Source: Dechloromonas aromatica (nom. nud.) (GTDB taxonomy: Bacteria; Pseudomonadota; Gammaproteobacteria; Burkholderiales; Rhodocyclaceae). Taken from it: 64,000 nt of DNA. Below, piece by piece: positions 41,984 through 53,533 of the stretch. Position 1 is the stretch's first letter. Each line of letters begins with the position of its first letter. The notes under the pieces are model-generated. The model was given only the letters and a program-made list of their open reading frames with translations. It made no database searches and was not told where the DNA came from. The stretch covers positions 124,001 to 188,000 of the forward strand of contig JAFIHA010000027.1 of NCBI GenBank assembly GCA_017848965.1, written 5' to 3'. Made by a program: the position numbers and the translations under genes.

Positions 41984-43387
41984 CTAGGGAATGCGAACCT
42001 GCGTCTCCGGAAATCTTGCGTGCAGTTTTTCCATCAAGACCTCCTTGGCCCGGCGATCACCATGGACCAGACGGATTTCCGCCGGCTGGTGGCGCATACG
42101 CCCGACGAAGCGCAGCAGGTCGGCCTGGTCGGCGTGCGCGGAATACGCCGCGATGCGGTGAATGCCGGCGCGGATGCTGTGGCGCTCACCGTCGAGTTCG
42201 ACATAGCCGCCGCGCGGTCCGTATTGCTGGATGGCGTGCCCGGGCGTTCCGGCCGCCTGATAGCCGACGAAGACGATGTCGTGCCGGGCGTCGCCGATCA
42301 TGGCTTTCAGGTAATTGACGATGCGCCCGCCGGAGCACATCCCGCCAGCGGCGATGACGACCGCCGGGCGGGCGCTGCGCGCCAGGTAGGCGACGGTTTG
42401 CAGATGCTCGTCGTGACCGTCCACCGTATAGAGCTGTTCGAAGGCCAGGGGGTGGCGACCGCTGGCGGTGCGGCGGCGGGCTTCGGCGTCCCACAGGTGA
42501 TGCAGGCGGATATGTGCCTGCGTCAGACGCGCCGCCAGCGGGGAATCGACGATGATCTCCAGCGCCGACCAGTCGGTTTCCGCCGGCTGCTTTTTCGCGC
42601 TGGCGATGACATGCTCCAGGTCGTAGAGGAGTTCCTGGGTACGCCCGATGCTGAAGGCGGGAATGAGGACGCTGCCCCGGTTACGCAGGGCGCGTTCGAT
42701 GGTTTCCTGCAGTTGCCGGCGGCGCTGCTTCCGATCAACGTGCAAGCGATCGCCGTAGGTGCTTTCGAGGACCAGCAGATCGGCCCGCCATGGCGAACGG
42801 GGTGCCGGCAGAAGCGCGCTGTGGGGAGCGCCGAGATCGCCGGAAAAGACGATACGCCAGTCGCCTTTGTCGGAACCCGTTGCCAGTTCGCCGCTGAGGC
42901 GGACTTCGACGAAGGCTGAACCGAGAATATGCCCGGCCGGGTGCAGCTTGATCTGCCAACCGGGAAGCAAGGCATGCCAGTGCTTGTAGGGCAGCGCCAC
43001 CAACTGGCCGGCGATTTGCTCCAGTATCCGCCGGATCAGGCGTTGGTCCGACGTCACGCCGACCTTCATCGCATCCTCCAGCATCAGCGGCAGCAGTTCG
43101 GCACTCGCCTCGCTGCACAGGATGGGGCCGCGAAATCCGGCCGCCAGCAGGTAGGGCAAACGGCCGAGATGATCGATGTGCACATGGGTGATGACGATGG
43201 CCCGGATGTGGTCTACGGGAAAGTCGATTGCCGGCGTGCCGGCCGAACCGCCCTCGGCGGACACCTCGGCCCCCTGAAACAGCCCGCAGTCGACGAGAAT
43301 GGCCGTGCCATCCCGGGCGCGCAGTTCGTGGCAGGAACCGGTGACGCCATCGACGGCACCGTGGTGCAGCAACGTGTAATCGTTCAT
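41984..43387 (-). CDS. Beta-CASP metallo-beta-lactamase ribonuclease-like protein
   Basis: A 467-residue MBL-fold protein with the metal motif THVHIDHLGRLPYL (HxHxDH) near residue 70, ESTYGDR, the beta-CASP domain with GRTQELLYDLEHV, then AAGGMCSGGRIVNYL and a C-terminal RMMBL-type region (YSAHADQADLLRF, LVHGD). Relatives are RNA-processing nucleases of the CPSF-73/RNase J superfamily. GGAG before ATG 43387 supports the start. It follows the PKS operon by about 110 bases in the same direction, but no link to polyketide synthesis is evident. Confidence 0.88.
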   Translation of the reverse strand: MNDYTLLHHGAVDGVTGSCHELRARDGTAILVDCGLFQGAEVSAEGGSAGTPAIDFPVDHIRAIVITHVHIDHLGRLPYLLAAGFRGPILCSEASAELLPLMLEDAMKVGVTSDQRLIRRILEQIAGQLVALPYKHWHALLPGWQIKLHPAGHILGSAFVEVRLSGELATGSDKGDWRIVFSGDLGAPHSALLPAPRSPWRADLLVLESTYGDRLHVDRKQRRRQLQETIERALRNRGSVLIPAFSIGRTQELLYDLEHVIASAKKQPAETDWSALEIIVDSPLAARLTQAHIRLHHLWDAEARRRTASGRHPLAFEQLYTVDGHDEHLQTVAYLARSARPAVVIAAGGMCSGGRIVNYLKAMIGDARHDIVFVGYQAAGTPGHAIQQYGPRGGYVELDGERHSIRAGIHRIAAYSAHADQADLLRFVGRMRHQPAEIRLVHGDRRAKEVLMEKLHARFPETQVRIP

Positions 43388-43497
43388 TGCGTTCTCCGGG
43401 GAAGAAAACGGCAATGATATTTGCATTTTTCATGCGGCGCGATTCGGCTGGCGAATTGCTGCCGCCCTCGGGCGAAGCGCAGACTACGGAGTACTGC

Positions 43498-44784
43498 CTA
43501 CGGCTTCACGCCTACCCGCAGCCGGGCGCTGCCCAGCGCTGCCAGCGCCCGCTCCAGTGACTCAGCGCCATGCCCATGGTGAATGCAGAAGACCAGGCGT
43601 GCCTGGCACTCGTCGACCGCCGGGGAAACCAGCGGCAGTGCCTGGATTCCCTGGCCCGCCAAGTGCTCGGCGAACGCCAGGACCGTCCCGGAATCGCCGA
43701 GGATGAGCGGAATCACCGCCTGCCCGGCACAGGCGCCGGTGGCGAAACCCTGGGCATGCACGCCGGCCAGAAACTGCCTGGCGTTTTGCCGCAGCAACGC
43801 CGGGCGCGCCGGTTCGCTGCCCAGGATGCGCAGCGCCTCGCGCGCGGCGGCGGCCATCGCCGGCGCCAGCCCAACGCTGTAAACGAAACCCGGGGCCGAA
43901 TATTTCAGCAGGTCGATCAGCGCCCGGCTGCCGGCGATATAACCACCCGCCCCGGCCAGTGCATGCCCGAGGCTGCCCGACCAGAAATCGACATCGTCGC
44001 CGGCCAGCGCCCAGTGCTCGCGGCTGCCGCGGCCGCCTTCGCCGAGCACGCCCAGCGCATGGGCGTCATCGATCATCAGGAAGGTCCGGTAACGCCGTTT
44101 CAGGGCGACCAGGCCCGGCAAGTCACAGATGTCGCCGGCGACCGGGGACAGTCCGTCAGCGACGATCAGCACCCGCTCGTAATCGCCGCGCACTCCGGCG
44201 AGCAGTTTTTCCAGCGCCGGCAAGTCGTTGTGCGGAAAGGCCCGCCGCGTCGCGCCGGCCAGACGGACGCCCTCAAGTACGCTGAGATGACAGAACTGGT
44301 CATGGACGACAAGATCCCGCGGGCCGAACAGATGGCCGATCGTCGTTTCGTTGCCGGCATAACGGCTGACAAAAACCAGCGCATCGTCCACTGCGTAGAT
44401 TTCCGCCAGCGCCGCTTCGAGTTCGCGCAGCAAGGGGCGCTCGCCGGCCACCAGACGACTGGCCGAGACCGAACTGCCGTATTGATCGACGGCCTGCTTG
44501 GCCGCTTCCCGGACGCGCGGGTCGCTGGCCAGGCCCAGATAGTCGTAGCTCGCGAAATCGCCTTCTCCCTGCCCCGGAGCAAGTGCCGGTTGGCTGGACT
44601 GTAGCGACGAGACGATCTGCCGATAGGCAGGAAAGGCATCGAAGCGACAGAACTGGTCGATATCCGGTGACGCAGCGGACGGACTTGGCGCGGACGTAAC
44701 TTCGCCGGTTTCCCGGCGGGCGGCAAAGCGTTTGACGAGTTTCTCCCGAAGATCGCCGGCGAGAACGGACATGGGCTTTTTCAT
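43498..44784 (-). CDS. Degenerate alpha-oxoamine synthase lacking the PLP lysine
   Basis: A 428-residue protein of the BioF/KBL/SPT family (fold type I PLP enzymes joining acyl-CoA or acyl-ACP to an amino acid with loss of CO2). The PLP-lysine motif is altered: SGSLGHALAGAGGYIAG has His at residue 274 (codon 43963-43965) where active members have Lys. Other motifs are weakened too: DDAH instead of DEAH, no SMDGD, and SRYAGN in place of SGHATN. It is co-encoded with a second, intact copy 4 bases upstream. Such a Lys-less subunit paired with an active one is known from LCB1/LCB2 of eukaryotic serine palmitoyltransferase. Start chosen at 44784. Confidence 0.85.
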   Translation of the reverse strand: MKKPMSVLAGDLREKLVKRFAARRETGEVTSAPSPSAASPDIDQFCRFDAFPAYRQIVSSLQSSQPALAPGQGEGDFASYDYLGLASDPRVREAAKQAVDQYGSSVSASRLVAGERPLLRELEAALAEIYAVDDALVFVSRYAGNETTIGHLFGPRDLVVHDQFCHLSVLEGVRLAGATRRAFPHNDLPALEKLLAGVRGDYERVLIVADGLSPVAGDICDLPGLVALKRRYRTFLMIDDAHALGVLGEGGRGSREHWALAGDDVDFWSGSLGHALAGAGGYIAGSRALIDLLKYSAPGFVYSVGLAPAMAAAAREALRILGSEPARPALLRQNARQFLAGVHAQGFATGACAGQAVIPLILGDSGTVLAFAEHLAGQGIQALPLVSPAVDECQARLVFCIHHGHGAESLERALAALGSARLRVGVKP

Positions 44785-44788
44785 GGTT

Positions 44789-46084
44789 TCAGCGGCAACG
44801 GGCAATCTCGTCGAGTGTGTGATCGATCTGGGTCTGCGTATGGGCGTAACAGATGAAGAAACGCAGGCGCGCCAGCCTCTCCTCTACCGCCGGATGGATG
44901 ATCGGTTGCACGCTGATTCCTTGCCGAGCAAGTTTCTTTGAGAGACTGACCGCCTTCAGCGAACTGCCAGTAATCAGAGGAACGACGCAGTAGCCCTCGG
45001 AGAGTCCGGTATTCATGCCACGGAGTCGAGCCTGTTCGAGAAAATAGTGGCCCGCCGCACGTAACTGCTCCAGCCGCCAGGGCTCATCGAGCATGATCCG
45101 GATGACCGCCGATGATGCTGCCGCCAGCGCCGGCGCCAGACCGACGCTGGCATTGTAGCCCGGTGCCGCGTAGCGGATCAGGTCGACCAGCGCCTGCTCG
45201 CCAGCGATGAAACCGCCGCAGCCGGCGAACGATTTGCTCAGGGTACCCATCCAGATGTCGACGTCACCAGCCGGCACGCCGCAGTGTTCGTGAATACCCC
45301 GACCGCTGCTACCCAGCACACCGAGCGAATGCGCCTCGTCGACCATCAGGAAGGCGCGGTGCCGCCGCTTGATTTCGACAAAGCTCGCCAATGCCGGCGA
45401 ATCGCCGTCCATGCTGTAGAGCCCTTCGATCACCACGAGCACCCGCTCAAAGTTGCCCCGGATTTCGGTAAGCAGGCGATCCAGCGCGGCGGGATCGTTA
45501 TGGGGAAAGGCGCGGCGCGTCGCTCCCGAAAGACGGACACCTTCGATCACGCTGTTATGGACCAACTGGTCGTGAATGATCAAATCCTTCGGTCCGAACA
45601 GGAAACCGATGGTATTGACGTTGGTGGCGTGGCCGCTGGCGAAGGTCACCGCGTCATCGACGCCGTACAGGCCGGCGATCGCGGTTTCCAGTTCGCGCAC
45701 CACGGCCACCTCGCCGGCCACCCGGGGCGCGGCCGCCAGCGAGGTACCGTAACGGTCGATCGCCGCCTTGACTGCGGCACTGACGCGGGAATCGCCGGAA
45801 AGGCCGAGGTAGTTGTAGCTCGAAAAATTGAGCATGCTCCGTCCGCCAACCGTCGTCGTCGCGCCTGCCACGCCCTCATGGCAAATGAAGTAAGGGTCGT
45901 CGATCCGCAACTTTTCCGCTGCAAGACGAAACAATGCGATTTTGGTATAGCCGGGAAACTTGTCGATCCGATAGAACTTTTCCGGTACGTCGAGTCCGCC
46001 ATCAGCCACCATCGGCCTTTCGCCCGTATTTTTGGCCAAATGGATGGCTGTCTCCTTGCTGCGCCCCGCCGAGAAAATTGCCAT
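44789..46084 (-). CDS. Alpha-oxoamine synthase (PLP-dependent acyltransferase), active copy
   Basis: A 431-residue PLP enzyme of the 8-amino-7-oxononanoate synthase/KBL/serine palmitoyltransferase family. Key residues are in place: MGTLSKSFAGCGGFIAG with the PLP Lys at residue 284, MVDEAHSLGVLG (Asp249, His252), GLYSMDGD and SGHATN. It would condense an amino acid with a thioester, here probably the chain on the upstream PKS ACP, releasing CO2 and an alpha-amino ketone. It starts 3 bases after the PKS stop, so the two are probably translationally coupled. A biotin-synthesis role is unlikely: no bio genes nearby. Confidence 0.9.
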   Translation of the reverse strand: MAIFSAGRSKETAIHLAKNTGERPMVADGGLDVPEKFYRIDKFPGYTKIALFRLAAEKLRIDDPYFICHEGVAGATTTVGGRSMLNFSSYNYLGLSGDSRVSAAVKAAIDRYGTSLAAAPRVAGEVAVVRELETAIAGLYGVDDAVTFASGHATNVNTIGFLFGPKDLIIHDQLVHNSVIEGVRLSGATRRAFPHNDPAALDRLLTEIRGNFERVLVVIEGLYSMDGDSPALASFVEIKRRHRAFLMVDEAHSLGVLGSSGRGIHEHCGVPAGDVDIWMGTLSKSFAGCGGFIAGEQALVDLIRYAAPGYNASVGLAPALAAASSAVIRIMLDEPWRLEQLRAAGHYFLEQARLRGMNTGLSEGYCVVPLITGSSLKAVSLSKKLARQGISVQPIIHPAVEERLARLRFFICYAHTQTQIDHTLDEIARCR

Positions 46085-46087
46085 GGG

Positions 46088-49000
46088 TCAGGCTTTCCCC
46101 TGCAAATCATTGACCACCGACTCCAGGATTTCCGGTGCAATATCCTGCGCATGCTGCGCCGCCATGCCGGCCGCCGTGCTGGCAAGATCGTTGACCTCGC
46201 CACCACCGCCGAGACGCTCGACGATGCGCTCGGTGACGCGATCGACGGTCGGCCCCTCGTTCAGCATCATCGCCGGCACCTGGACGCCGAAGCGCTTTTC
46301 CAGACCGAGGGCGAGTTCGACGCCCATCAGCGAATCGAGGCCGAGGTCGTGCAGCGAACGGCCGGCGTCGATCCGCTCGGGGTTGATCGCCAGCGTCTGC
46401 GCGACTTCCTGGGTGACCAGCGAACGCACCAGTTGCCTGACCTCATCCGGCGACTTGCCTTCGATCAGGCTGCGGAAGTCCTCGAGGTTCTCCGGACCGC
46501 TCGCCGCTTCGTCACCGTTGCGCCAGAGCGCGGCGAAACGCGGGCTGTGACTGGACGGCAGCAGGCGCGCCAGCGTCGGCCAGTGGAAATCGGCCAGCGC
46601 CAGATTGGGGCTGCCGGCGGCGAGCACTTCGCCGAGCATGGCGAGCGCCGTTTCCACCGCCAGCGGCGCCGCACCGAGACGGCTGGCGAGGCTGTCCTTG
46701 ACCGCCTGGTTGCGGGTCAGGTAACCGGCATCGCCGATCGGCCCCCAGCCGACGCAGGTCGCCGGCAGGCCGCTGCGGCGACGCTGCACGGCCAGCGCCT
46801 CGAGCCAGGTGTTGGCGGCGACGTAGGAAGCCTGCCCCGGGTTGCCGATGCTGGTGGTGATAGAGGAGTAGAGGACGAAATGCTCGAGCGGGCAGTCGCG
46901 CGTCAGTTCGTGCAGATGCCAGGCGCCCTTGATCTTCGGTTCGAGGACGCGGGCGACACGCTGGGCGTCGAGGTTGCCGAGCAGTGCATCGTCGATCACC
47001 ATCGCCGCGTGGAAGATCCCCTTCAGCGGCGGCAGGTCGGCCAGACCGGCCAGCATTTGCGCTACCGCGGCACGGTCGGCGACGTCGCAGGCGACGATGC
47101 GGACACCGGCACCAAGCGCTTCCAGTTCCTGGCGAACGACTTCGGCCCCCGGCGTCTCGGCGCCGCGCCGGCTGACCAGGACGAGCTGGCCTGCGCCATG
47201 GCTGGCCAGCCAGCGGGCGGTTTCAAGACCGAAACCGCCGACGCCGCCGGTCAGCAGGTAGCTGCCGGCAGGATCGAACTGCGCCACATGGCGCTGCGCA
47301 AACTGCGGCTGGGCATCGACCCGGGCGTCCTCGAAGGAGACGACGACCTTGCCGATCTGCCGTGCCTGCTGCATGTAGCGGAAGGCATCGACCACCTGTT
47401 CCGCCGGGAAGACGCGTGCCGGCAGCGGCGTCAGTACGCCCTCGCCGAACAGCGCCATGACTTCGCCGAACAGGCGGGCGGCGAGCGCCGGGCGAGCGAT
47501 CAGCAACTGGTCGGCGTCGATGCCGAAATAGCTGATGTTGTCCTTGAACGGGCGCAGGCCGATCGGCGTGTTCTCGAAGAAATCGCGCTTGCCGAGTTCG
47601 AGGAAGCGCCCGAAGGGACGCAGGATCTGCAGGTTGCGGCGGATCGCTTCGCCGGCCAGCGAGTTGAGGACGACATCGACGCCCTCGCCGCCGGTCAGCG
47701 CCAGGATGTCCTCGGCGAAAGCCAGGCTGCGTGAATCGAGCACATGGTCGGCGCCGAGCAGTTCGACGAAGAGGCGCTTCTCGTCGCTGCCAGCGGTGGC
47801 GAAGACCTCCGCGCCGAGATGGCGGGCCAGTTGCACGGCAGCGATGCCGACGCCACCGGCGGCGCCATGGATCAGCACACGTTCGCCGGGTTGCAGGCGG
47901 GCCAGCTCCTTGAGCGCGTAATAGACGGTGAAGAAGACGGTCGGTACCGTCGCCGCGGCGGCGAAGGACCAGCCGTCGGGAATCGGCATCAGCGCATCCT
48001 CGCGGGAGATGACATGGCTGGCGAAGCAGGCCGAACCGAAGCCCATCACGGGATCGCCGGGCCTGAAGCCGGTGACTTCGCTGCCGACCCGGCTGACCAC
48101 GCCGGCAAACTCCAGGCCCAGACTGGCGCCGGCGAAGCCGTGCTCGACCGCCTCGTCGGGCAGGAGGCCCATGACGTACATGATGTCGCGGAAATTGAGG
48201 CCGGTCGCCCGCGGGCGGACCTCGATCTCCTTGGCGCCGAGCGTCGCGGCCGGCGTCTGCAGCCAGAGCAGGTTGCGCAACTGGCCGGGAACGCGGAAAT
48301 CGAGGCGGTAGCGGGATTCGCTTTCGGCAGCGGCCGGCGGCGCGGCGACCTGTGTCGCGCGCATGCGCAGCACCTGGCGCCCCGACGAACGCAGGATGAT
48401 CTCGCTTTCGCCATCGGGCTGCGTCAGTTCGGCGCCCAGCGCGGCGACATCGCCAGTCAGCGGGCAATCGATCAGTTGCAGCTTGAGTCCGGGCATCTCG
48501 TTCATGACCACCCGCGCCAGTCCCCAGACGGCGGCCAGCGCCGCTTGTACCGGCAATTCGTCGGCCAGCCCGTCGACCGGCGCCCCACCGCCGAGCAACA
48601 GGTGCAGTTGCGGCGCCGGGCTACGCGCGGCAAGCTGATGGACCAGTTCGAAGAAGGCCAGCGTCGGTCCCGTATCGTCGGCTGCAACAGCGGCCGGCAG
48701 CCAGACAATGTGCGCCGGGCTGGCGGTGGCCGGCAGTTCGCTGGCAATTTCCACGTTCTTGCCGCTGGCGGCCAGTGCGGCCTGCAACGCGACAACGCCG
48801 GTGGCAGCCGGATCGGCAGCGAGCAGCAGCCAGTGTTCGGCGACGGCTGGCGGCGATTCCGGCGCTGGCTCGCCTGCGCGCGCGCCGCCTTCGGCCAGCA
48901 ACAGGTAGCTGCCGGCAGCGAGGTCGGCGGCGGCCGGTTCGTACCAGAGCCGGCAGGTGGCAAAACCGCTGCCTTCGAGCAGTGTCTGCCAGGCGCCGGC

Positions 49001-52000
49001 CCCGGGCAGCTGGCGGCCCGCAGCGAGCAGGCCGGCGGCCGGATCGGCCGCCCGTTCGCTGATGGCAAGCAGGCCGCCCTCGGCCAGCACGCCCTGCAGC
49101 ATGTCCAGCAGCGCGCGCGGGTTGGCGCTGGCCGACAAGGCATGGCGCAACAGGATGAGGTCGAAATCACCGCCCTGTAAGGCCGCGGCGTCGAGACGCG
49201 CGGCCTCGGCATCGAGCGCGGCGACCTGCACCCAGTCGCGCTCCAGGTAATCGCGGCTCAGGCGGTCGCGGATTTCCGGGTCGGCCTGGGCGATCCAGTA
49301 TTCGATGCCGGTGGCGTCGATGGCACCGGCGATCTGGCGCGGAATCGTCGTCGCGCCGGCGGCGATTTCCAGAACGCGCAGGCGGCGCGCCGGGTCGCGT
49401 CGGCGCATCGCCTCGACGACCAGGGTTTCGCAGGCGACGCGGCTGGCCAGGTAACTCAGCGAATCGTCGTGCAGGGTTTCCCATTGCGGGCTGCGCGCGA
49501 GCGCGGCAGCAAGCGCACCGGCATCGCCACGCCCGGCCAGGACATCGGCCAGCCGGCTGCCGGCGACGGCAAGCAGGATCAGCTCGGCCAGGCTGTCCGG
49601 GTACTCGGCAAGCAGAGTGCGCCAGATTTCGGCTGGTGCCGGCAAGGCATCGGCATCGAGTTCGGGAACGCCGTCATCGATCTGCAGCAGTTCCTGACTT
49701 TCCAGCAGAGTCCGTGTCCAGGCGAACAGGGCCCGCTGCGCATCGCTGGCAAAGCCCTCGCCGGCAAGGAAGCGCCCGGCATCCTCCGGGGCCTCGCGCA
49801 GCAGCCCGGCCATCGCCTGCAGCGCGTAGGCGGTGACCAGCGCGTCGAGCAGCGGCAGGGCTTCGCCGATAGCCGACTGGCGCTGCAGGCGCGGCTCCTG
49901 GGCAAGCAGCGCCCGGTCGAGGATGGCCGCCCAGTCGGCGCCGCCAGGGAAAGCTGCCTGGCGGGTTGCCGACGGATGCGCCGCCAGAGTCGGCACGATT
50001 TCCCAGGCCGCCGGTGCCGTCCGCCCTTCCCGGCGCAGTGCCGCCGAACGGAAGCGGCAGCCGGCAAGGCGGGCGACGCACTGGCCGGCGGCGTCGAACA
50101 GTTCGAAATCGACAAGCACCGAACGCAGGCTGCGCTTGCGCAAGTAAGTACGGAATGCGACGACCGGTCCAGCGCCGAGGCGCAGTTGCAGGCGACCAAT
50201 CTTGACCGGTAGCGAGGGAACACCGTTGCCGGACTCAATTTCCGAACGTTGAAAATCGAGCAGCGACTGGAAGCAGACATCAAGCCGAGCGGGGGGCAGC
50301 AGCCAGGCGTCGGTTTCGCCGCTGGCGACGAACTCGCCGCTCAACCGGGTATCGTCGTGGCAGGCACGAGCCAGGCCACGGAAATCGCCGCCATAGTCGA
50401 GGCCGAGTTCACTGGCCAGCCGGTAGTGGGTGTCGTGATCGATTTCGGCAACCGGGTCGATGGCGAGCAGCGGACGCGTCGTCAGCGCCACGCTCATCGT
50501 ACCGAGCAGGCGGCCGGCGGCGTGCAGCGACCATTCGTCCTCGCTCAGCCGTTGCCGGCTGCGGATCTGGAAACTGCCGTCGCGCTGGTTGAGGTCGAAG
50601 CGGATGCAGCGTCCATGGGCTTCGTCGAAGACCACCGGCGAAATGATGTCGAGCTGTTCGACCTCGATGCTGTCGCCGCCGTAGAACTGCTGCGACGCGG
50701 CCAGCGCCATCTCGACGTAGGCGGCGCCGGGCAGGACGACGGCACCGCCGACGCGGTGGTCGGCCAGCCAGCGGTCCACGCGCGGATCGAGCAGGTTCTC
50801 CCAGGCCGCCGGGGCGTCCTTGAGCACCCAGCCGAGCAGCGGATGAACGCGGTCGCGCTCGATCAGTCGGTAGCCCTCGGTCGAACTCTCCAGCCAGAAA
50901 CGTTCGCGCTGCCAGGGATAGAGGGGCAGATCGACAAAACGCCCGGCCACCGGGAAAACGGCCTCCAGGCGGCGGACACCGCCGAGCACTTGCAAGCGCA
51001 GGACAAGTTCCTCAACTCGGTCCACGCCATCGTCGTTCTTGCGTAGCGAAGGCAGCAGGCGGCCCTGAACCTTGGCCGCCGCCAGGCATTCCTTGAGGTA
51101 GCGCTGGAGGATGGCGTTGGGGGAAATCTCGACGAAGACGTTGGCGCCGGCAGCGGCCATGGCCGTGATGGCGTCGGCAAAGCGCACCGGCTGCCGGATG
51201 TTGTCCCACCAATAAACGGCATCGAGCGGTTTGACGCAGGCCTGCCCGGTCACCGTCGAGAAGAACTGCGTTCCCGAAACCAGCGGCTGCGGCGCGAAAC
51301 CTGCCAGCGAGGCAAACAGCATCTCGCGCGTCGGCTCCATTGCCGCGCTGTGGAAGGCGTAATCGAGGTCGAGCAGTCGGAAGGCGGCGCCGCGCGCGCG
51401 CAACAACGGCGACAATTGTTCGAGCGCGGCGAGCGGGCCGGATACGGTAAGGTTCTGCGGACTGTTGATGCCGGCAACTTCGATGCTGTCCAGGCCGTGC
51501 TCGGCGAGCAAGGCACGCAGGCTTTCCTCGCCGATGGCGACGGCGGCCATCCGGCCGGCGCCGCGGGTCAGCGCCTGGGCGGCGCTGCGGGCGCAGATGA
51601 CGCGCACCGCTTCGTCGCGGCTCAAGGCGCCGGCCGCCCAGGCGGCGGCGATTTCGCCGACGCTGTGGCCGGCAGTGCAATCGGCGACGATGCCCTGCTC
51701 GCGCAACAACACGGTCAAGGCGTACTGCAGTGCGAACAGCGTCGGCTGCGCGACCCCGGTGTCGTCGAGACGAGCCGATTCGGCACCGGCCTGCAATTCG
51801 CCGAGCAAGGAAATTCCCGACTGCGCCTGCACCGGCGCTTCCAGTTCCTCGATCAGTTGCCGGAAGCGCGGGCTTTCGGCAAGCAGCATCTGCCCCATGC
51901 CGACCCACTGCGAACCGTTACCGGCATAGATGAAGGCCAACTTGCCGGCCACCGCTGGCGCTTCGTCGACCACGACACCGGCGGCTTCGCCGCTTCCAGC

Positions 52001-53533
52001 GTAGCGCTGGAGAAGCTGTACGGCCGCTTGCCGGTCGTCAATATGTACGGCCAGACGGTGTTCGAGCCAGTCGCGGCGGTGCGCGGCGCACCAGGCGAGA
52101 TCGTAGCTATCGACCGGCTCGGCGAGGCGCGCCGCGTAAGCAGCGGCCAGCGCACGCAGGGCGGGCACGCTGCGCGCGGAAAGGACGAGCGGCAAACCCG
52201 TTCCTGCTGGTGCGTTGGTGGCAGCGGCGTTTGGCCGGAACTCTTCGAGCAGCACGTGGGCATTGGCACCGCCGAAACCGAAGGAATTGACGCCGACCAT
52301 GAGCGGCTTGCGGGCAGCGCGTTCGGCGAGCGAATACGGTGCATCGACTGCGTGCAGGTGCCAGCCAGCGAAGTCGATCTTCGGATTGGGCGTTTCCAGG
52401 TGCAGCGACGGCGGCACTTCCCGGTGCTTGAGCACGAGCAGCGCCTTGACCAGCCCTGCCATGCCGGAAGCCGGCTCGAGGTGGCCGACGTTGGTCTTCA
52501 CCGAACCGATCGGCAACGGATCGGCGGCGGCCCGCGCCTGGCCGTAGACGGCGCCGATGGCGGCGGTCTCGATCGGATCGCCGATCGCGGTGCCGGTACC
52601 GTGGGCTTCCAGATAATCGACGGCAGCAGGGTCGAGGTCGTGACGGGCCAGCACCTGGCGCATCAGTTCGACCTGGCCGTCGATGCTGGGAATGGTCAAC
52701 CCGGTCTTGCGACTGCCGTCGGCATTGACGCCGGAGCCACGGATCACGGCGTGAATCCGGTCGCCGTCGGCGATTGCCTGGGACAGCGGCTTGAGCAGCA
52801 GGAGTGCCCCGCCCTCGCCGCGGACATAGCCATCGCCGCTGGCGTCGAAGGTCTTGCAGCGGCCACCGGCGGAGAGCATCGAGGCCTTGGTGAAGCCGAT
52901 GAAGGGATGCGGATGCAGCAGGATGCTGACGCCGCCGGCCAGAGCCAGCGACGCCTCGCCGGTACGCAAGGCGGTGCAGGCGTGATGCAGCGCGACCAGC
53001 GACGAGGAGCAGGCGGTATCGACCGCCAGCGACGGCCCATGCAGGTCGAAGACGTAGGAAAGCCGGTTGGCGGCGATACTGAGCGTGTTGCCGGTCATCG
53101 AATGGGCGCCGAGGACGGCGACATCGTCCATCGAACGGCTGGCGTAATCATTGCTGGAAATCCCGACATAGACCGCGCAATCGCTGCCGGCCAGCTGACT
53201 GGCCGGGGTACCCGCGTTCTCCATCGCTTCCCAGGCCAGTTCGAGCAACAGGCGTTGCTGCGGGTCGAGGCTATTTGCCTCGCGCGGTGAGATGCCGAAA
53301 AAGGCGGCATCGAATTCATCGATCCGGGAAAGCACACCAGCGGCAAAAGTGATGCTGCGCCCCGGCTCGCTGCGCTGCGGATGCTGCAGCCGTTCGGTTG
53401 CCCAGCGGGATGCGGGAACCTCGGTAACCAGGTCACGGCGGCCGGCAAGCGCCTGCCAGAACTCCGTTTCGTTGGACATATCCCCTGGGAAACGGAAGGC
53501 GACCCCGACGATCGCAATGTTGTCGTTGTTCAT
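46088..53533 (-). CDS. Highly reducing type I polyketide synthase
   Basis: A 2481-residue single-module PKS, apparently iterative. Domains in order: KS 1-430 (Cys175 in DTACSSS, His311, His351); AT 530-860 (Ser624 in GHSVGE; YAFHS at 725-729, malonyl type); DH 895-1165 (His926 in DHRVGGAVVLP, Asp1085); methyltransferase-like region 1225-1540 with degraded SAM motif (LEIAAGATT, 1388-1396); structural pseudo-KR 1565-1735; ER 1745-2070 (HGAAGGVG); KR 2088-2330 (TGGVGGFG, Ser2224, Tyr2237; VIDD suggests B-type); ACP 2365-2445 (Ser2401 in LGLDSL). No thioesterase: release is probably by the downstream oxoamine synthases. The domain order resembles fungal HR-PKS and mammalian FAS. Confidence 0.95.
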   Translation of the reverse strand: MNNDNIAIVGVAFRFPGDMSNETEFWQALAGRRDLVTEVPASRWATERLQHPQRSEPGRSITFAAGVLSRIDEFDAAFFGISPREANSLDPQQRLLLELAWEAMENAGTPASQLAGSDCAVYVGISSNDYASRSMDDVAVLGAHSMTGNTLSIAANRLSYVFDLHGPSLAVDTACSSSLVALHHACTALRTGEASLALAGGVSILLHPHPFIGFTKASMLSAGGRCKTFDASGDGYVRGEGGALLLLKPLSQAIADGDRIHAVIRGSGVNADGSRKTGLTIPSIDGQVELMRQVLARHDLDPAAVDYLEAHGTGTAIGDPIETAAIGAVYGQARAAADPLPIGSVKTNVGHLEPASGMAGLVKALLVLKHREVPPSLHLETPNPKIDFAGWHLHAVDAPYSLAERAARKPLMVGVNSFGFGGANAHVLLEEFRPNAAATNAPAGTGLPLVLSARSVPALRALAAAYAARLAEPVDSYDLAWCAAHRRDWLEHRLAVHIDDRQAAVQLLQRYAGSGEAAGVVVDEAPAVAGKLAFIYAGNGSQWVGMGQMLLAESPRFRQLIEELEAPVQAQSGISLLGELQAGAESARLDDTGVAQPTLFALQYALTVLLREQGIVADCTAGHSVGEIAAAWAAGALSRDEAVRVICARSAAQALTRGAGRMAAVAIGEESLRALLAEHGLDSIEVAGINSPQNLTVSGPLAALEQLSPLLRARGAAFRLLDLDYAFHSAAMEPTREMLFASLAGFAPQPLVSGTQFFSTVTGQACVKPLDAVYWWDNIRQPVRFADAITAMAAAGANVFVEISPNAILQRYLKECLAAAKVQGRLLPSLRKNDDGVDRVEELVLRLQVLGGVRRLEAVFPVAGRFVDLPLYPWQRERFWLESSTEGYRLIERDRVHPLLGWVLKDAPAAWENLLDPRVDRWLADHRVGGAVVLPGAAYVEMALAASQQFYGGDSIEVEQLDIISPVVFDEAHGRCIRFDLNQRDGSFQIRSRQRLSEDEWSLHAAGRLLGTMSVALTTRPLLAIDPVAEIDHDTHYRLASELGLDYGGDFRGLARACHDDTRLSGEFVASGETDAWLLPPARLDVCFQSLLDFQRSEIESGNGVPSLPVKIGRLQLRLGAGPVVAFRTYLRKRSLRSVLVDFELFDAAGQCVARLAGCRFRSAALRREGRTAPAAWEIVPTLAAHPSATRQAAFPGGADWAAILDRALLAQEPRLQRQSAIGEALPLLDALVTAYALQAMAGLLREAPEDAGRFLAGEGFASDAQRALFAWTRTLLESQELLQIDDGVPELDADALPAPAEIWRTLLAEYPDSLAELILLAVAGSRLADVLAGRGDAGALAAALARSPQWETLHDDSLSYLASRVACETLVVEAMRRRDPARRLRVLEIAAGATTIPRQIAGAIDATGIEYWIAQADPEIRDRLSRDYLERDWVQVAALDAEAARLDAAALQGGDFDLILLRHALSASANPRALLDMLQGVLAEGGLLAISERAADPAAGLLAAGRQLPGAGAWQTLLEGSGFATCRLWYEPAAADLAAGSYLLLAEGGARAGEPAPESPPAVAEHWLLLAADPAATGVVALQAALAASGKNVEIASELPATASPAHIVWLPAAVAADDTGPTLAFFELVHQLAARSPAPQLHLLLGGGAPVDGLADELPVQAALAAVWGLARVVMNEMPGLKLQLIDCPLTGDVAALGAELTQPDGESEIILRSSGRQVLRMRATQVAAPPAAAESESRYRLDFRVPGQLRNLLWLQTPAATLGAKEIEVRPRATGLNFRDIMYVMGLLPDEAVEHGFAGASLGLEFAGVVSRVGSEVTGFRPGDPVMGFGSACFASHVISREDALMPIPDGWSFAAAATVPTVFFTVYYALKELARLQPGERVLIHGAAGGVGIAAVQLARHLGAEVFATAGSDEKRLFVELLGADHVLDSRSLAFAEDILALTGGEGVDVVLNSLAGEAIRRNLQILRPFGRFLELGKRDFFENTPIGLRPFKDNISYFGIDADQLLIARPALAARLFGEVMALFGEGVLTPLPARVFPAEQVVDAFRYMQQARQIGKVVVSFEDARVDAQPQFAQRHVAQFDPAGSYLLTGGVGGFGLETARWLASHGAGQLVLVSRRGAETPGAEVVRQELEALGAGVRIVACDVADRAAVAQMLAGLADLPPLKGIFHAAMVIDDALLGNLDAQRVARVLEPKIKGAWHLHELTRDCPLEHFVLYSSITTSIGNPGQASYVAANTWLEALAVQRRRSGLPATCVGWGPIGDAGYLTRNQAVKDSLASRLGAAPLAVETALAMLGEVLAAGSPNLALADFHWPTLARLLPSSHSPRFAALWRNGDEAASGPENLEDFRSLIEGKSPDEVRQLVRSLVTQEVAQTLAINPERIDAGRSLHDLGLDSLMGVELALGLEKRFGVQVPAMMLNEGPTVDRVTERIVERLGGGGEVNDLASTAAGMAAQHAQDIAPEILESVVNDLQGKA

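Follow-up and report, generated by a model that had tools for sequence, protein, structure and literature searches.

A polyketide synthase adjoining a lysine-bearing and a lysine-less alpha-oxoamine synthase: a candidate amino-lipid pathway in Dechloromonas aromatica

A gene trio in the 64-kb stretch of Dechloromonas aromatica DNA analysed here (the window) encodes a polyketide synthase (PKS) and two alpha-oxoamine synthases (AOS1 and AOS2), the second of which has histidine in place of the PLP lysine and valine in place of the carboxylate-binding arginine. Judged from its domains and residues, the trio probably builds a sphingolipid-like amino lipid. We give a probability of about 0.56 to the reading that AOS1 and AOS2 form a heterodimer with one live active site that releases the PKS chain, born of a duplication and convergent with the eukaryotic LCB2/LCB1 pair; the pair was found in one genome. 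The chemistry of a PKS with an AOS is not new, and the lysine-less twin is.

Results

The three genes follow one another on the minus strand in the order PKS, AOS1, AOS2 (Table 1). The gap between PKS and AOS1 is 3 bases (46085-46087); between AOS1 and AOS2 it is 4 bases (44785-44788) if AOS2 starts at the ATG at 44784. A TTG at 44805 is a possible alternative start of AOS2, which would give 435 aa (43498-44805). The open reading frames, coordinates and gaps are those that an earlier note on this DNA had reported, and matches as strong as those seen, 1e-30 to 1e-85, are not chance.

Table 1. Positions of the trio and of its features in the window
Feature	Position	Strand	Size or residues	Remarks
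PKS	46088-53533	minus	2481 aa	ORF check; coordinates confirmed
AOS1, catalytic alpha-oxoamine synthase	44789-46084	minus	431 aa; PLP lysine K284, arginine R408	ORF, Pfam, NCBIfam, residue alignment
AOS2, lysine-less AOS1 paralogue	43498-44784	minus	428 aa	From ATG at 44784
PKS C-terminal tail behind ACP	46091-46168	minus		Variant of AQHGE-like motif; candidate docking element
AOS1 partner-side loop	45704-45751	minus	Residues 112-127	Changed relative to relatives, including S119 to A and R120 to P
AOS2 partner-side loop	44434-44481	minus		Kept much as in single-copy relatives
AOS1 codon for PLP lysine	45233-45235	minus	K284	
AOS2 codon at PLP lysine position	43963-43965	minus	H281	Numbered from TTG
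AOS2 codon at carboxylate-binding arginine position	43591-43593	minus	V405	Numbered from TTG
AOS2 N-terminal segment	44713-44784	minus	Residues 1-24	Present in AOS2 but lost from AOS1; possible docking helix

Pfam found KS, AT, DH, ER, KR and ACP domains in the PKS, with methyltransferase-like matches below cut-off between DH and ER and no thioesterase, and the PKS motifs are intact, which bears out the earlier description of a single-module highly reducing PKS without thioesterase. The methyltransferase also appears to be dead, as had been proposed: its glycine motif has degenerated in this PKS as well as in 11 of 12 relatives compared, and the remaining one (L022) is gapped there. We take the AT motif to be of the malonyl kind. 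The PKS is mildly diverged, at 59-63% identity to six PKS of the genus (L071, L099-L103), the other five of which are 63-73% identical to L099. Many relatives share an AQHGE-like motif in the PKS tail behind the ACP, and this motif is altered in the PKS of the trio.

Upstream (5') of the trio lie spoU, rnhB, lpxB, lpxA, a FabA/FabZ-type gene, lpxD, an OmpH-like gene and a BamA-like gene, and downstream (3') a beta-CASP metallo-hydrolase, then glmS. The metallo-hydrolase gene (41984-43426), just downstream of the trio, gave NCBIfam matches below cut-off to aCPSF1 and a Cas14-type model, and the other match in the same genome is 38% identical. A search for spoU, rnhB, lpxB, MBL, glmS and asnB in 46 large stretches of relatives returned a single weak spoU match. 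Promoters and terminators at the locus did not exceed what shuffled sequence yields, and neither Rfam families nor tRNA were found in the window. A Wzx/Wzy-type polysaccharide cluster (glycosyltransferases, epimerases, UDP-sugar dehydrogenase, O-antigen-ligase-like and Wzc-like genes) occupies positions 6274-30503; its G+C content, in 2-kb windows, is 0.405-0.616, lower than that of the trio (0.630-0.711).

Both AOS1 and AOS2 have the class I/II aminotransferase fold (Pfam), and their best NCBIfam matches are the BioF, KBL and SPT models, all below curated cut-offs. Active-site residues are present in the PKS and, of the two AOS, at least in AOS1. Across 100 other AOS loci, the lysine is found in all, the arginine in 99 (the remaining locus is not covered there) and the loop arginine in 95. 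These lysine and arginine columns rule out AOS1 and AOS2 as two equal enzymes. The earlier phrase "two oxoamine synthases" is misleading, because the second lacks both the catalytic lysine and the arginine. One AOS-fold subunit with the PLP lysine and one without it is the composition of heterodimeric SPT.

In our tree, the two copies fall in one clade (98/92) with seven of the eight other AOS of the genus, L069 grouping outside. They are sisters at 93/63, which is weak support, and both branches are long (1.03 for AOS1 and 2.18 for AOS2 vs 0.085-0.31 for those seven AOS). When one copy was removed, AOS1 remained a member of the genus clade (98/92), and AOS2 fell on the side of a 93/82 split that contains the genus. 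The tree omits L007, and for long or fused rows it uses the C-terminal 450 residues. Against bacterial AOS, AOS2 reaches scores of up to 425 bits, and against SPT subunit 1 chains 139 bits; the grouping of both copies with the AOS of the genus, in a tree built without eukaryotic rows, gave no sign of common descent with the eukaryotic LCB1/LCB2 split. The AOS2 frame is open over 428 codons and its third codon positions diverge more than the first and second. None of 300 neutral simulations run to equal divergence was stop-free for AOS2, a simulation that overstates the expected stops because all divergence is placed on one branch. On these grounds we think it unlikely that AOS2 is a plain pseudogene.

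We compared the pair at active-site positions of two kinds. The own-side set comprises nine residues named for S. multivorum SPT in excerpts of PMC10196870 (F114, H138, S185, D210, A212, H213, T241, S243 and K244) and Arg390 of S. paucimobilis SPT, taken from excerpts of PMC6148460 and placed by residue spacing and motif. The partner-side set (S81, R82, F83, L84, M271, F272, S273 and A274) comes from the PMC10196870 excerpts as well, and the residues named there were all mapped by alignment. The partner-side label derives from asterisk gaps in that text, together with PMC3794620, in which N100 comes from the opposite subunit, and PMC5519370, in which a serine of the second subunit lies at the PLP; R82 is inside the named partner-side loop and is not itself marked in the excerpts. 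The residue table of relatives covers the 81 of 91 loci with at least 44% identity, and the lysine, arginine and loop-arginine counts given above use all 100.

The losses of the two copies look complementary at these aligned positions. Own-side changes number 0/10 in AOS1 and 6/10 in AOS2, and partner-side changes 5/8 in AOS1 and 0/8 in AOS2, where a kept residue is the commonest one in relatives (Fisher test on the 11 changes, p=0.002, or p=0.005 without R82, framed after the pattern had been seen). Among the five changes in AOS1, the F83 site varies widely in relatives and the M271 site varies among V, L and I; among the six in AOS2, Tyr for F114 also occurs in 9/81 relatives. The segment with the equivalents of the acyl-tunnel residues Tyr27/Phe28 is present in AOS1 and missing from AOS2. 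This pattern would fit a single working site assembled from the AOS1 lysine and the AOS2 loop. Over all 161 conserved columns, in a control that used 32 chosen single AOS, changes number 18 in AOS1 and 35 in AOS2; 4 columns are changed in both vs 3.9 expected, and column-wide mutual avoidance of losses was not seen. With 18, AOS1 is close to the single-copy relative that has diverged most (17), members of the genus having 0-6. Because of this control, our confidence in the heterodimer is slightly lowered.

The N-terminus also separates the copies. Scored against a profile built from the N-termini of 25 stand-alone AOS, AOS2 gives 21.5 bits and AOS1 1.4 bits; the best of 100 shuffles reached 5.4 and 3.1 bits, respectively, and the 25 relatives, each left out in turn, scored 13.3 to 67.8. 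The open frame of AOS1 is just 432 aa, and there is therefore no room for an earlier start. The segment kept by AOS2 may bind the PKS tail.

No tandem AOS pair was found in a second genome in our draws from the order, genus, family and class. An AOS match was present in 26/399 genomes for the order, 9/76 for the genus (at E <= 1e-70), 18/297 and 28/395 for the family and 16/369 for the class, the draws overlapping and each including the genome of the trio (G000); outside the genus, at most 4-5 candidates per genome were scored. Likewise, 0/100 other loci had a second AOS near the first in the stretch examined, which covered at least 1000 downstream bases in 96/100. Two genomes (G750 and G1033) have two AOS each, on separate contigs, and all four carry the lysine. 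A PKS-like match accompanies 69 of 91 AOS loci in the stretch examined. The AOS forms the C-terminal part of the PKS in two domain-scanned Myxococcota loci (L010, L011) and bears an N-terminal ACP in two domain-scanned Acidobacteriota loci (L015, L019), which supports direct chain hand-over.

More broadly, the AOS ends long ORFs in myxobacterial loci L009-L011, L014, L016-L018 and L028, seven of which overlap a PKS-like match and one (L014) does not, and it ends ORFs of 501-524 residues in acidobacterial loci L015, L019, L020 and L024; four of these twelve loci were domain-scanned.

The earlier note had seen no telling neighbour genes. This holds in the genome of the trio, but in relatives the PKS-AOS genes sit with capsule export genes. 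Within the genus, all 8 of the other genomes with an AOS have a KpsE-family gene (E <= 1e-20), which shares the contig of the AOS, and 0/67 genomes lacking an AOS have one. Because linked genes descend together, a p-value on this count should not be read literally. The genome of the trio has the lipid genes without a detected capsule exporter: there was no KpsE at 1e-6, with a query that finds its targets in the 8 genomes of the genus, and no KpsT at 1e-25, with a query used without positive control. Across the order, KpsE was found in 19/24 stretches, 7 of the 24 being members of the genus already counted. The loci with a KpsE/BexC/CtrB-family gene near PKS-AOS are L071-L078, L099-L107, L109 and L110, with KpsM in 19/19 and KpsT in 18/19. 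Of the five stretches without KpsE, three carry in its stead an SDR and an LtaS-like gene, a combination also seen in L004-L007 (Halomonas group). Ancestrally, the PKS-AOS product may reasonably be supposed to have been a sphingoid-like lipid carrier for capsule.

An SDR and an LtaS-like putative phosphotransferase lie near PKS-AOS in L004-L007, L079, L080 and L108. The LtaS match is weak (1.6e-4); the gene might be what supplies the phosphoglycerol head group described for the sphingolipids of strain MYb115. No KDS-reductase-like SDR was found in G000 at E <= 1e-35, the query being the SDR from a relative's cluster and not SgaC, the KDS reductase that accompanies SgaAB; the same query matched in 3/6 genomes searched, one of them (G423) without AOS.

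Discussion

From the genes, their residues, phylogenetic placement and distribution, we infer a dimer, its docking, its substrate and its product as follows. The acyl chain that the PKS would assemble on its own ACP is predicted to be unbranched and largely reduced, and an AOS1-AOS2 heterodimer with one live active site would release it. AOS1 would provide the lysine-bound PLP, the acyl-tunnel residues and the arginine, and AOS2 the partner-side residues of the AOS1 site, with the N-terminal segment of AOS2 docking both subunits at the PKS tail. A sphingoid-type amino ketone would then form by decarboxylative condensation of the chain with an amino acid, for which the analogy with SgaB suggests serine. 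The pair would have arisen when the PKS-linked AOS of the genus was duplicated in tandem, each copy subsequently losing what it no longer needed. The fuller proposition, that this is an independent and recent obligate heterodimeric single-site AOS, made of a catalytic and a lysine-less docking or activating subunit, which acts on a PKS-bound chain in a lineage where PKS-AOS has become uncoupled from the capsule locus, we hold tentatively, at slightly short of even odds.

Compatible with the heterodimer, and in our view possible though doubtful, is a lipid product that carries or anchors a surface polysaccharide and is not a free membrane lipid or signal. The KpsE counts in the genus and the order, the Wzy-type cluster at 6-31 kb of the window, and the rhizobial rkp-1 products, said in excerpts of PMC4881576 to produce a specific carrier lipid through which capsule is secreted, speak for such a role. 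The failure to detect KpsE and KpsT in the trio's own genome argues against it, as does the one characterised product of which we know, which consists of sphinganines and phosphoglycerol sphingolipids (PMC12134224, excerpts).

The heterodimer must also be weighed against an AOS1 that works by itself as a homodimer, like SgaB, and leaves AOS2 as a duplicate that is dispensable, in slow decay or of regulatory use at most. One AOS evidently suffices in relatives, none of the 100 other loci having a second in the stretch examined, and SgaB shows activity when purified alone (PMC12134224, excerpts); the longer branch of AOS2 and the number of conserved-column changes in AOS1, close to that of the most diverged single-copy AOS, point the same way. 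We nevertheless consider this unlikely, given that AOS2 keeps an intact frame with coding-type divergence and that AOS1 has lost an N-terminal segment and several partner-side residues, all of which relatives retain.

We assign a very low probability to AOS2 being an enzyme in its own right, with histidine at the lysine position, PLP or PMP chemistry and a second product or step. ColD is reportedly a PLP enzyme that uses His instead of Lys, and AOS2 retains the residues that hold the PLP ring (equivalents of H138, D210, A212 and H213), but its equivalents of the phosphate-side T241 and S243 are changed along with the arginine, and the acyl-tunnel segment is missing. Use of an unrelated acyl-CoA by the AOS pair, the PKS chain being released otherwise, would accord with the acceptance of acyl-CoAs by SgaB in vitro (PMC12134224, excerpts) and with docking in the trio being conjectural, and is made highly improbable by the PKS-like matches at most AOS loci, the existence of PKS-AOS and ACP-AOS proteins and the gaps of 3 and 4 bases.

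Should the heterodimer be real, a bacterial AOS would have divided into one catalytic and one non-catalytic subunit, and the single-copy relatives in the genus would represent the "before" state. No bacterial two-subunit or lysine-less AOS is announced in the titles or abstract openings of the literature surveyed. The frequent association of PKS-AOS with capsule export genes in the order also ties the PKS-made sphingolipids described in 2025 to the older rkp/wcb capsule genes; a literature search on the combined terms found no paper linking the two, and the main text of PMC12134224 makes no mention of capsul*, wcbR, rkp or polysaccharide.

Several known systems can be likened to the trio by description. 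The earlier note drew its comparison with fumonisin FUM1/FUM8, in which the chain of a highly reducing PKS is reportedly released by an AOS. There is also a bacterial precedent: according to excerpts of PMC12134224, SgaA (PKS) and SgaB (AOS) of Pseudomonas fluorescens MYb115 make C24-C28 sphinganines, SgaB has SPT activity, and 6,101 homologous clusters are reported. As in SgaAB, where an iterative type I PKS adjoins an AOS and the acyl chain is condensed with serine, the trio has a single-module reducing PKS with an AOS directly downstream; the difference lies in one active AOS there and two unlike AOS here. Release of a reducing-PKS chain by an AOS as an amino ketone, as the earlier note had proposed, thus has a published precedent, and what fits it less well is the second AOS without the lysine. 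The note had also named a match to a described cluster of known product as telling against it, and that is partly the case, because the published SgaAB cluster works by the proposed chemistry.

The genes rkpG and wcbT presumably encode AOS-like proteins. Their type I PKS companions rkpA (rhizobia) and wcbR (Burkholderia) belong to capsule gene clusters (PMC3908369, excerpts); the trio differs in having no detected capsule exporter and a duplicated AOS, one copy of which is lysine-less.

The eukaryotic SPT heterodimer, called unique among AOS family members in excerpts of PMC6148460, resembles the pair in joining one lysine-bearing and one lysine-less AOS-fold subunit (LCB2 and LCB1). It differs in that the AOS of the trio adjoin a PKS, are both derived from the AOS of a bacterial genus and are only conjecturally a heterodimer. 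Because both copies derive from the genus's own AOS, we regard the resemblance of AOS1/AOS2 to LCB2/LCB1 as convergence, and the pair, if it is a heterodimer, would let one ask why eukaryotic SPT carries a lysine-less subunit: through degeneration after duplication, or through a gain such as docking or control.
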